Positions 49,743 to 54,532 of a stretch of DNA of 60,000 nt are shown here, piece after piece; position 1 is the stretch's first letter, and each line of letters opens with the position of its first letter. Location of the stretch: the NCBI RefSeq assembly GCF_020463795.1, contig NZ_CP080025.1, positions 1 to 60,000 on the forward strand, read 5' to 3'. This DNA comes from Echinicola marina. Lineage in GTDB: Bacteria > Bacteroidota > Bacteroidia > Cytophagales > Cyclobacteriaceae. The position numbers and the translations under genes were made by a program. The notes beneath the pieces were generated by a model. The model ran no database searches. It was not told the DNA's origin and was given only the letters and a program-made list of their open reading frames with translations.

Positions 49743-49796
49743 TTAGAATTGAATAAGAAACGTATCTTTACGTATAAATTCAAACTCCATCCAGGA

Positions 49797-50789
49797 ATGT
49801 CACGGTATTTTACCATTTTTATAACGACTCTCTTATTTTCAGGCTTATTTCATAAAGCATGGGGCCAGGACAATAAAATAGTTCCTGACACTATCATGAT
49901 CAATGGAGACACCTTAATCATGCTAGGAGACTCTCTGATCATCAAGGAAGAGGTAAAACAAAACTACTGGAAAAAGGGAGGTAATTACAACCTAAGTATT
50001 CAACAAGTAAGCCTTTCGAACTGGGCGGCAGGGGGAGCAAGTTCCTTTGCACTAAATACCGGCGTCAACCTTTTTGCCAACTATAAAAAAGGTGGGCGAA
50101 TATGGGACACAAAGCTAACAGTCAACTTTGGATTTAACAGACAAACTGAAAGATCATTTAAGACGCGAAAAACCAATGATAACTTTAAGTTTGTAAGTAA
50201 GTACGGCAGAGAACTATCAAAAGGCTTTTATTTATCTACTCAGCTTGAAGCTCGAACGCAGTTATTAAAGGGGTACAAATACTTCAAGCCAGCCAATTCA
50301 GAAATGGAAGATAGAGATCTAATCTCAGACTTCCTAAGCCCTGCATATATTCAATCTTCCACTGGTCTTAACTTCCAAAAAGACAAAGATGGATTTAAAT
50401 TATCCTCCATATTATCGCCTTTTACAGGCCGTTTCACCATTGTAGCCAACGACTCATTAAGTCAAGCTGGCGCATTTGGTATATTGCCTGGTGAAAAAGT
50501 AAGACCTGAGGCAGGTGCTTCCTTGGGAGCATCCATAGACACTCGATTGATGAAAAATATAGAATGGAAAGCCGACCTTAACCTCTTCTCCAATTATGGA
50601 AAGTTTGGCAATATGGTAGTCAATTTCAATTCAGCCCTCCGCATGAAAGTCAATAAGTACATTAGTACTCGAATAGAGACCGTTCTTATTTATGATGAAA
50701 ATGTGTTTATAAAACAGGATGATGGCAGCAAATCACAAGTTATTCAGTTTCAGAACCTGATCAACTTCGGCTTGGGGCTGGATTTCTAA
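49797..50789 (+). CDS. DUF3078 protein, probable outer-membrane beta-barrel
   Basis: 330 residues from ATG 49797, giving a Sec signal (MSRYFTIFITTLLFSGLF, cleavage near GQD). A TTG start at 49749 would add 16 residues, which would mask the signal. The body has alternating strands and the family segment QQVSLSNWAAGGASSFALN, ending in an aromatic Phe (LGLDF), typical of outer-membrane barrels. The stop codon overlaps the dnaX tau stop on the other strand. Role unknown. Confidence 0.85.
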   Translation: MSRYFTIFITTLLFSGLFHKAWGQDNKIVPDTIMINGDTLIMLGDSLIIKEEVKQNYWKKGGNYNLSIQQVSLSNWAAGGASSFALNTGVNLFANYKKGGRIWDTKLTVNFGFNRQTERSFKTRKTNDNFKFVSKYGRELSKGFYLSTQLEARTQLLKGYKYFKPANSEMEDRDLISDFLSPAYIQSSTGLNFQKDKDGFKLSSILSPFTGRFTIVANDSLSQAGAFGILPGEKVRPEAGASLGASIDTRLMKNIEWKADLNLFSNYGKFGNMVVNFNSALRMKVNKYISTRIETVLIYDENVFIKQDDGSKSQVIQFQNLINFGLGLDF

Positions 50790-51379
50790 AAATCTGTTTC
50801 TAGTCCAAAACGCTTCTGTAACTCTTTCAATGCTGGGGATTTCTTAGTAAGATAGGCCAATTTATCAGTAGAAGTATATAATTTATCCTCCTCTTTTACC
50901 GCTTCCTCCCTAATTTTATAGTGAATTTCAACATAATCATTCTCCAACTTCCTTTTCACAATCCCCATTAACTCGGGCTTAAGTTTGGAAAACAAATGTT
51001 CTTGAAGCTCCCCGTTCAGGAAAAAATTAACGCTATTAGCCTCTACTTCAAACGGCTGTTTTAAAAGTGTGATTTCTTGGTATTTCCTTTTTTGCTTGAA
51101 ATCTAAAATAATCTCTTCAAGCATTGCTCCGAACTTTCCTTTATCAAAAGGCGTATCTCTAAGTTGATCTTCGTTATGAACCTTTACCTGCTCTTTTGCC
51201 TTGGATGCTTGCTCTTTCGATTCTTGTATGCTACTTTTTACTTGCCGCTTTACCTCTGTAATATTAGAAGGAATGGACATGGTCTTCTTTACCTCCCTCT
51301 TTATGGCGGCATCAGAAACCAAGTCTGCCTGACTTGTAACTTCCTTTGAGGTACTGTTATTTTTCTGCTTAGCTAGTCT
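50786..51379 (-). CDS. dnaX: DnaX tau-specific C-terminal region (-1 frame)
   Basis: In the -1 frame the reading is open without a stop from the A run (51388-51379) to 50786, adding 197 codons to the zero-frame product: about 578 residues in total, the size of a Bacteroidota tau subunit. The C terminus ends KELQKRFGLETDF, a tail typical of tau in this phylum. A separate TTG start at 51322 is a poor alternative because the preceding 19 codons are also coding-like. Expressed only by -1 shift or slippage; see the frameshift site. Confidence 0.75.
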   Translation of the reverse strand, partial: RLAKQKNNSTSKEVTSQADLVSDAAIKREVKKTMSIPSNITEVKRQVKSSIQESKEQASKAKEQVKVHNEDQLRDTPFDKGKFGAMLEEIILDFKQKRKYQEITLLKQPFEVEANSVNFFLNGELQEHLFSKLKPELMGIVKRKLENDYVEIHYKIREEAVKEEDKLYTSTDKLAYLTKKSPALKELQKRFGLETDF

Positions 51380-52521
51380 TTTTTTTTTATTTCTTCTTGG
51401 GCCAATGCGGCTAGCGAAATCGCCTGAGGTAATTTGGCCAGTTTCATCAGTGCTAATTCTACGTGCAAACGTTGATTTTTACTCCCCTTGTATTGCATAT
51501 CACATTGATTGCAAATATTGAGTGCCGACAACAAAAATGAAAGGCTGGATTTAGCAGCCTGCTCCACATATCTCTCTTGTGCACTTTCTGAGACTTGAAG
51601 TAATTCAACTGTGGCCGCATCCTTGCAAACCATTAGATTACGAAAATGCTCACTTAGCCCAACAATAAAATTATGCCCATCAAATCCCTTTTTAAGAATT
51701 TCATCAAAAGTGAGCAGCACATTAGAAATACTCTCTTCCAATAAAGCATCCGTCACCTTGAAATAATAATCATAATCCAAGATATGAAGGTTATTGATAG
51801 TTTCCTGGTAGGTCAGTTTATTCCCTGCTGAATAAGTCACAATAAGGTCATAGATAGAAAGTGCATCTCGCAAAGCACCATCAGCCTTTGCAGCGATTAG
51901 CCTCAATGCTTCATCCTCATATGCAATCTCTTCTTCAGAAGAAATATATTTTAGATGTTCAGCAATATCCTTAATCTGAATACGATTAAAATCAAATATC
52001 TGACACCTAGATAGAATCGTAGGAATAATTTTATGCTTCTCTGTAGTGGCCAAAATAAATATGGCGTATTTTGGAGGTTCTTCTAGCGTCTTTAAAAAAG
52101 CATTAAATGCTTGAGTGGATAGCATATGAACCTCATCGATAATATAGATTTTGTAAGATCCTTTTTGTGGAGCATATCGCACCTGGTCCACCAAATTCCT
52201 AATATCATCTACTGAGTTATTGGAAGCAGCATCTAGTTCATGTACATTAAAGGAACTATTAGTATTGAATGCTTTACAAGAATCACATTCATTACAAGCC
52301 TCAAAATCCTCCCTTAAACTTTCACAATTTATGGTCTTAGCCAAAATACGGGCACAGGTAGTTTTCCCCACTCCCCTAGGACCACAAAACAAAAATGCCT
52401 GAGCAAGATGATTATTCTTAATGGCATTTTTTAAAGTAGTGGTAATATGCTGTTGCCCTACCACACTTTTAAAATTAGAAGGTCTATATTTTCTGGCTGA
52501 GACTACAAAATTTTCCATCAC
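51373..52521 (-). CDS. dnaX: DNA polymerase III gamma/tau subunit DnaX, zero-frame (gamma-like) product
   Basis: Clamp-loader ATPase. The zero frame makes 382 residues: Walker A GPRGVGKTT (47-55), zinc ligands C66, C76, C79, C82, DEVHMLS Walker B near 131, sensor regions and domain III. It ends after AAA AAA AAA GAC TAG, so only a gamma-like protein is made without frameshift. Tau needs a -1 shift at the A run. The order is the reverse of E. coli, where the zero frame gives tau. Confidence 0.92.
   Translation of the reverse strand: MMENFVVSARKYRPSNFKSVVGQQHITTTLKNAIKNNHLAQAFLFCGPRGVGKTTCARILAKTINCESLREDFEACNECDSCKAFNTNSSFNVHELDAASNNSVDDIRNLVDQVRYAPQKGSYKIYIIDEVHMLSTQAFNAFLKTLEEPPKYAIFILATTEKHKIIPTILSRCQIFDFNRIQIKDIAEHLKYISSEEEIAYEDEALRLIAAKADGALRDALSIYDLIVTYSAGNKLTYQETINNLHILDYDYYFKVTDALLEESISNVLLTFDEILKKGFDGHNFIVGLSEHFRNLMVCKDAATVELLQVSESAQERYVEQAAKSSLSFLLSALNICNQCDMQYKGSKNQRLHVELALMKLAKLPQAISLAALAQEEIKKKD
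51379..51388 (-). other. dnaX: Run of ten A, candidate frameshift / transcriptional slippage site in dnaX
   Basis: The minus-strand coding sequence is ATA AAA AAA AAA GAC TAG, a run of ten A with slippery AAA codons just before the zero-frame stop. A -1 slip keeps the reading open into the tau C terminus. No clear Shine-Dalgarno-like stimulator was found upstream. A homopolymer sequencing error (true run of eleven A) would also explain it. Confidence 0.65.
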
Positions 52522-52630
52522 CGCAAGATATAAAATTCCTTTAATTTACTCCTGCAAAAAAAATAAAATCCTACACCAATTTCATCAACAAACTAAAAAT
52601 CAAACACTTCAATTTAAGCATAATATAAAC

Positions 52631-54532
52631 TTAGTTAAGTCTATCTAACACGGTAAATCTAGAAGTATTACTGATATATTCAGGAACTATCGATTTAACA
52701 TGCCGCACTATATCCGTTTCAGAATTTAACGCCAATAGTTTCTCAAAATACTCTATCTGGTAATTGATCCTATTAAAAGATATCGGAGCCATCTCTACAA
52801 CTCTGATTTTAGGATGGTAGGTGATTTTCAACTCCTCAGAATTACATACCAATTCCTCATGCATCTTTTCTCCTTCCCGCAAGCCGGTAAAAACTATCTT
52901 AATATCTTTTTCTATCCTTTTCTCACTTAATAAGATCATTTTCTTCGCGAGGTCAAGTATTTTTACAGGCTCACCCATATCAAAAATAAATATTTCCCTT
53001 CCTTTGGACATCGCACCAGCCTCCAATATCAATTGACAGGCCTCTCCTATGGTCATGAAATATCTTGTGATATTAGGATCCGTTACAAACACGGGACCAC
53101 CCTGTTCAATCTGCTTTTTGAACAAAGGAATTACAGACCCATTTGATCCAAGTACATTACCAAATCTGGTTATAGCAAATCTGGTATATTGACCACCTTC
53201 CACTTTCATATAATCACTTAATGCCTGTATATACAATTCAGCAATCCGCTTAGAAGCCCCCATCACATTTGTAGGATTTACGGCTTTATCCGTACTTACA
53301 AACACAAACTGCTTGACATTATTAATAATGGATAAATCTGCCAAATGTTTTGTGGCCAAAATATTACTACGGATTGCCTCCTCTGGGAAAGTTTCCATCA
53401 TAGGAACATGCTTGTATGCTGCCGCGTGATAAACGATCTGAGGCTTATAGGTCTTAAAAATATTAGAAATCGCCTTCTTATTTCGAATATCCGTCAATAT
53501 AGGTTTTACAGGAATCTCCAGTTTTTGGGATTTAAACTCCTGTTCTAAATCATATAGCGCCGATTCAGACTGATCTAACAATATGAGAAGCTTTGGACTA
53601 TGAATAACTATCTGCCTGCACAGTTCACTGCCTATTGAGCCTGCTGCTCCAGTAACTAGAACTACTTTATTATTAATCTGGGTATAAACATGCGGATTAT
53701 CGAGTGTAATTTCAGGCCTTGATAAAAGGTCTTCAATCTTTATTTTTCTAATTTTACCGACATTGAATCCTCCTTTCACCCATTCATCTATTGATGGCAC
53801 AATACTCACCCTTATGCCATACTTAAAACACTCATCAATTATCTCTCTTTTTCTCCTTGGTGAGATATTCATAACAGATATCAACAAATCTGAAATTTTA
53901 TATTTAACGACTAGTTCTTTGAGATCCTCCAAGCCCAAATAAATAGGAACGCCATCTATAAATTCTCCCTCCTTATCTGGATCATCATCAAGAAAAGCAT
54001 GAATTTTTTGTTTATAATCACCGTCTTTCCCCAAAACAATCTTTGACAATCTACCAGCTTCCCCAGCTCCAAAAATCAATATATTCTTGACCGGTAGTTT
54101 ATTCGTAATATAATAGGTATAAACTTCCTTAATTAAACTACGATACAAAATCAAGCTTGAAAACGAAATCAAACTAGCTATTACTAGGACAGATAAAGGC
54201 TGAAAATTATCTAAATCAAAACTGCTTTCTATCCAAATCCCAAGTAAAAACGATATAAGAAGGGCTCCGAACACAATCCTGATAACAGATAGAATATTGC
54301 TGAAATTTGTTTTGGCAATTTTCCAAATGCAATTCTCACACACTACCATAGCAATCAAGCCTGCCCCTGCAAACAACACCCCATCTTCAATAACAGGATA
54401 AGAATCCATTAGGTTTAAATCAAAATTTAGCCTTATAAAAAATGCCAAAATCACTGATTGAAACAAAATGAAAGAGTCAACAAATCGGGTGATCCATTTT
54501 ATCATCTCAAAATCTTTATCTAAAAATGTCAT
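52631..54532 (-). CDS. PglF/WbpM-like UDP-sugar 4,6-dehydratase (membrane, CapD family)
   Basis: 633 residues with four N-terminal membrane helices, a first Rossmann-like domain (ILIFGAGEAGRL) and a catalytic SDR domain with VLVTGAAGSIG (291-301). The active-site set STDK (413-416) and NVMGASK (M424, K428) is the SDR variant of PglF, FlaA1 and WbpM, with Met in place of Tyr. It should convert UDP-GlcNAc to the 4-keto-6-deoxy sugar. A PglC-like and a PglE-like gene lie upstream. Confidence 0.9.
   Translation of the reverse strand: MTFLDKDFEMIKWITRFVDSFILFQSVILAFFIRLNFDLNLMDSYPVIEDGVLFAGAGLIAMVVCENCIWKIAKTNFSNILSVIRIVFGALLISFLLGIWIESSFDLDNFQPLSVLVIASLISFSSLILYRSLIKEVYTYYITNKLPVKNILIFGAGEAGRLSKIVLGKDGDYKQKIHAFLDDDPDKEGEFIDGVPIYLGLEDLKELVVKYKISDLLISVMNISPRRKREIIDECFKYGIRVSIVPSIDEWVKGGFNVGKIRKIKIEDLLSRPEITLDNPHVYTQINNKVVLVTGAAGSIGSELCRQIVIHSPKLLILLDQSESALYDLEQEFKSQKLEIPVKPILTDIRNKKAISNIFKTYKPQIVYHAAAYKHVPMMETFPEEAIRSNILATKHLADLSIINNVKQFVFVSTDKAVNPTNVMGASKRIAELYIQALSDYMKVEGGQYTRFAITRFGNVLGSNGSVIPLFKKQIEQGGPVFVTDPNITRYFMTIGEACQLILEAGAMSKGREIFIFDMGEPVKILDLAKKMILLSEKRIEKDIKIVFTGLREGEKMHEELVCNSEELKITYHPKIRVVEMAPISFNRINYQIEYFEKLLALNSETDIVRHVKSIVPEYISNTSRFTVLDRLN

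Follow-up and report, generated by a model that had tools for sequence, protein, structure and literature searches.

The dnaX gene of Echinicola marina leaves its reading frame just behind a run of ten A, which raises the question of whether it is a broken gene or one that makes both gamma and tau through a recoding site. The gene lies on the minus strand of the window, that is, the whole stretch of 60,000 nucleotides that was analysed (NZ_CP080025.1, positions 1 to 60,000). The zero frame in the list of open reading frames (51373–52518) encodes a gamma-like protein of 381 residues from ATG 52518, or of 382 from GTG 52521, and the ATG is the likelier start because the alignment to the NCBIfam model begins at residue 2. 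The run of exactly ten A at 51379–51388, which is the proposed slip site, is read in this frame as ATA AAA AAA AAA, and the junction on the minus strand reads ATA AAA AAA AAA GAC TAG. This TAG (51375–51373) and a TAA in the third frame (51371–51369) together shut both non-tail frames within 51369–51375, and the three frames behind the run are 4, 200 and 5 codons long. The 200 open codons belong to the −1 frame, whose translation gives the tau tail (50786–51378, ending with TAG at 50788–50786). With one extra base, tau would by arithmetic have 577 residues if started at the ATG and 578 if started at the GTG. The original prediction had a 382-residue gamma-like frame stopping one codon past the run, and a −1 frame of about 578 residues (578 when counted from the GTG) continuing without a stop from the run to 50786. 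Both were read directly in the sequence, as was the reversed logic by which plain reading gives gamma and a shift gives tau. At the stop codons the dnaX tail shares four bases (50786–50789) with a convergent plus-strand ORF (49749–50789).

The gamma-like protein matched TIGR02397 (E = 8.6e-133) and PRK14971 (E = 5.8e-222) in profile searches, and its Pfam matches comprised a delta-prime-like AAA domain, the lid and domain III of gamma/tau. The tail gave no family in the Pfam search (best E = 0.3) and aligned to positions 429–613 of the 614 in PRK14971 (E = 9.3e-13). When the gamma sequence was searched against its own genome, one full match and four partial matches were obtained, and a second full dnaX was thus rejected. 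The genome of 5.69 Mb contains 23 runs of exactly ten A when both strands are counted, and only 2 of them fall, in sense orientation, within an ORF of 100 residues or more, that of dnaX being one. The other (L159, at about 2916046–2916057 of the same genome) lies in an ORF of 161 residues, 21 codons before its end, and is possibly another slip site.

Conservation of the split gene in the genus

Homopolymers are prone to sequencing error, and such an error had been put forward as the main alternative to a true split. The run of exactly ten A, the gamma-sized zero frame and the tail one frame back were found in all 11 congeneric genomes searched (the window's own and ten others), six of which, the window's own included, are single-contig assemblies. 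The gamma protein is 99% and 92% identical to congeneric loci that are the same as the named loci of Echinicola shivajiensis and E. pacifica, respectively. Because close relatives have the same arrangement, the window dnaX is a real gene, and the homopolymer error is excluded in practice. The −1 tail is constrained as a protein, with a median pN/pS of 0.146 over the 11 congeneric tails, 0.055 in the C-terminal part, 0.587 in a loose linker and 0.013 in gamma, these medians resting on few unsaturated pairs out of 55 (7 for the tail, 5 for the C-terminal part, 23 for the linker and 7 for gamma). The other two frames over the tail carry 9 to 25 stops per gene in these 11 genes. The wider suspicion that the run contains a sequencing or assembly error, or that the gene is dying, can point to another surveyed locus (L293) with a stop within gamma; set against the shared run and split and the constrained tail, it becomes practically negligible.

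The tail might also be translated alone from an internal start, with no fusion into tau, and an ORF of 178 residues starting at TTG 51322 is present in the list of open reading frames. However, neither the residue at this TTG nor the later methionine is conserved in the 11 aligned congeneric tails, the tail is fused in frame in many relatives, and the A run would need no conservation if the tail were made separately. Separate translation of the tail was therefore considered very improbable.

The proposed slip site across order and phylum

The order and the phylum were surveyed for the form of dnaX. Among 194 genomes drawn evenly from the order, 186 had a match, and 150 of the better matches comprised 83 gamma-sized loci (window included), 66 tau-sized loci and one between. 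From the phylum, 148 genomes were drawn evenly and 146 had a match; among the matches listed, gamma-sized loci made up 11 of 31 in the same class and 29 of 109 in other classes (one of them, G310, at a contig end). A total of 283 distinct dnaX loci were read from the phylum, an uneven sample consisting of the best 80 named matches, 30 genomes of the genus g114, and gamma-sized and tau-sized loci picked from the order and phylum searches. Nine duplicates, L250 and L275 (from the same genomes as L187 and L176) and L304 were left out before the count; L001, L147 and L301 are repeats of loci already in the set. The tail frame was assigned as the longest open frame, and a tail profile built from these same longest frames, which was checked on the first 145 loci, gave no match for L039 and L141. 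L017, in which the ten A lie farther downstream, was scored as having a short run. Loci without the run were partly read by eye, and further non-A sites may have been missed among them.

A run of 9–12 A was present in 249 of the 283 loci and was exactly ten long in 205 of the 283, and even genes with more than 55% GC had exactly ten A in 18 cases out of 26. Each of the three codon phases is represented among the runs (136, 88 and 25 loci). Of the 249 tails, 135 require an extra base, 111 follow in frame and 3 lie in the third frame. The original prediction had held that relatives with an uninterrupted dnaX and no A run would speak against the split-gene reading. Uninterrupted genes do exist, but most of those in the sample still have the run (the 111 in-frame genes among the 249 with at least nine A), and for this reason they do not refute it. 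A FastTree tree of the gamma proteins of the 249 loci required at least 32 changes of tail frame, part of which may be sequence or tree errors, against 77 to 96 when the labels were shuffled (n = 20). Within the genus g114 of the same class, 27 of the 30 genomes have the tail in frame, two in the −1 frame and one in the third frame; genera of other classes are mixed as well, with 17 and 3 loci in g138 and 4 and 4 in g143. A metagenome-assembled genome titled Spirosoma fluviale (L094) has a Cyclobacteriaceae-like dnaX (81% identical to the query, ten A, −1 tail), and its name is probably wrong.

The stops behind the run were compared with control positions of the same genes. Of 102 loci with the tail in frame, 87% had a stop within 10 codons in each of the other two frames (control 29%), and so did 95% of 115 loci of the −1 type (control 24%), the loci being related and hence not independent trials. 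Among the loci without a run of nine (34 in all), 12 had at most six A at an earlier stage of the survey, and in none of these did both other frames stop within 10 codons. From these patterns, gamma and tau both seem to be wanted in either arrangement. In the in-frame genes, a stop within five codons was found in 93% for the −1 frame (control 38%) and in 9% for the third frame (control 31%). On account of this bias, the chief alternative in both arrangements appears to be one extra base, that is, a change in the −1 direction.

Polymerase slippage or ribosomal frameshifting

We propose, with a probability of roughly 0.7, that the dnaX of the window is a functional gene with two products and a recoding site, not a broken one, and that tau is obtained through slippage of RNA polymerase on the ten A. 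Gamma would come from plain transcription and translation of the observed zero frame. At the run the polymerase would slip, leaving part of the mRNA with eleven A (or eight, or fourteen), and this mRNA would be read straight into the tail to give tau. Run lengths of the third class would lead to the TAA close behind the run and thus to a gamma-like protein. The same type of site would work either way round, and relatives with the tail in frame would get their gamma by slippage.

Alternatively, the mRNA may be faithful and tau may arise by programmed −1 ribosomal frameshifting, or sliding, on A_AAA_AAA in the run, which we consider unlikely although it deserves serious attention. We give slippage odds of about three to one over the ribosomal shift, since the run is fixed to the base at either end and E. 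coli-like spacing of Shine–Dalgarno (SD) words is nearly absent. Among 72 −1 loci from the order that have the run in the same phase, and that are related and were picked for having the run so that probabilities computed from them are too small, the run invariably begins at the third position of a codon, and this codon encodes seven different residues. Codons ending in A of that kind make up only 14–29% in the genes of these loci. The last lysine of the run is likewise always AAA, though 40% of the lysine codons there are AAG. The fixed ends point to slippage because a ribosomal heptamer needs one end of the run, not both; the run also exceeds the heptamer's need. A run kept near ten A in every codon phase, also in GC-rich genes, likewise speaks for the polymerase. 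At that stage of the survey, 75 −1 loci of the order had the run and only L035 and L139 were without it. A strong SD-like word ending 7–10 nt before the run was found in 1 of 237 loci with at least nine A, and 33 of the 237 had one only at 1–6 nt.

In the 28 bases before the window run, none of five SD-like words tested was present. No shared RNA structure was found in the 11 congeneric sequences, and no known RNA family reached its gathering score at 50700–52700. The fold z-scores of 218 loci showed no enrichment over a control stretch (means of −0.27 and −0.15, respectively; 0.02 for the window), a test that carries little weight because the E. coli stem-loop itself scored only −0.33. One congeneric locus (L012) folds better than its shuffles (z = −2.54).

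Several observations count for the ribosomal shift and against slippage. The A_AAA_AAA heptamer lies in frame inside the window run, and an in-frame −1 heptamer is present in every run. Broad slippage should allow both frames, yet −1 tails far outnumber third-frame tails (135 vs 3 of 249), and third-frame stops in the in-frame genes are rarer than in the control (9% vs 31%). The ribosomal reading draws on the same −1 bias, and this bias, strong as it is, fits both mechanisms. Genes without the run resemble classical ribosomal sites, and the accessible part of one report describes ribosome sliding on poly-A (PMC4363877). The three third-frame tails (L187, L294 and L293) need one base fewer or two more. 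L187 and L294 count against the ribosomal shift because a −1 shift cannot reach the third frame; these loci may, however, be errors, since two of the three are drafts at one place each and L293 has the stop inside gamma. In L302, from the same genus as L294, the run is one A shorter and the tail is in frame.

The loci without the long run include sites of another build. L035 and L281 have A_AAA_AAG in frame, and L139 and L141 have G_GGA_AAG in frame; in all four a stop follows directly, and a GGAGG precedes the heptamer with its end at exactly 10 nt, as far away as AGGGAG in E. coli dnaX. The tail frame of L141 was taken from L139, because the contig of L141 ends before the tail. In L281, a hairpin of nine pairs is predicted to start three bases behind the heptamer. 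Tau and not gamma would be the shifted product in L281, L035, L139 and, by analogy with L139, L141. Three in-frame genes also have A_AAA_AAG, with GGAGG at 10 nt in L311, GAGG at 10 nt in L305 and neither in L037. Ten named Pontibacter loci and L312 all have seven A, and among these 11, GGAG stands at 7 nt in six, only AGGA at other distances in two, and none of these words in three. The named Pontibacter loci (L119, L122, L124, L127–L132 and L136) have the tail in frame, and in several of them a GGCACC...GGTGCC pairing lies some 17 nt past the run. We infer that the genes without the long run may be ribosomal sites that replaced the A run.

Relation to known dnaX genes and implications

The window gene belongs to an arrangement that has been in print since 2013. 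The accessible part of the survey by Antonov et al (2013; PMC3711429) describes 17 two-ORF dnaX genes, spread over 12 genera, in which the transition is −1; nine of them have ten A. It adds three further genes, which have nine, eight and seven A, and proposes transcriptional realignment (slippage) for the genes with ten A. The window gene is like these in its zero-frame gamma, its −1 tau tail and the ten A at the transition, and in that part of the survey nothing differs in a way that matters for it. The arrangement is conserved in the window's relatives too, as the congeneric loci (11 of 11) and the −1 tails of the wider sample (135 of 249) show.

In Thermus thermophilus, slippage on nine A has been demonstrated through heterogeneous mRNA, according to the accessible parts of two sources (PMC1088944, PMC5009743). 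Both dnaX genes have a run of nine or ten A and close stops in the non-tau frames (TAG and TAA in the window); in T. thermophilus plain reading gives tau and gamma arises by slippage, whereas the roles in the window gene would be reversed. The E. coli gene (K-12 sequence; accessible part of PMC5009743) likewise encodes both gamma and tau, its shift site specifies lysine and a stop lies close by, and an in-frame X_XXY_YYZ heptamer is present in both genes (A_AAA_AAA in the window). The E. coli site combines A_AAA_AAG with a stem-loop and with an AGGGAG whose end lies 10 nt before the heptamer, and tau is there the unshifted product. In contrast, the run of the window gene is longer, a word with such spacing is absent, no stem was found in common among the 11 congeneric sequences, and tau is not the unshifted product. 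Atkins et al (2016; PMC5009743), in the part accessible, state that tau is the shifted product in some bacteria, naming one candidate with E. coli-like signals, and that at about 50% efficiency the two roles can be swapped by changing one base.

No phylum-wide survey of the dnaX slip site was found in our literature search, for which most subscription papers were outside reach. Within the literature searched, a run that stays almost constant over a phylum while the tail frame changes, together with the replacement of this run by spaced ribosomal cassettes, is apparently new. As the broken-looking dnaX is a conserved recoding gene, its annotation as a pseudogene, or as a gene without tau, would be wrong. 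The sites also form a natural experiment, in which ten-A sites almost without spaced SD words stand against run-less sites with E. coli spacing, and polymerase slippage and ribosomal shifting would therefore be directly testable in one gene family. It is an evenly balanced possibility that a poly-A slip site kept near ten bases through most of the phylum leaves dnaX almost unaffected by which frame its tail is in. The default product would then have flipped between gamma and tau some thirty times, E. coli-spaced ribosomal cassettes would have arisen in its place where the run was lost, and polymerase-level and ribosome-level recoding may have replaced each other in one replication gene.
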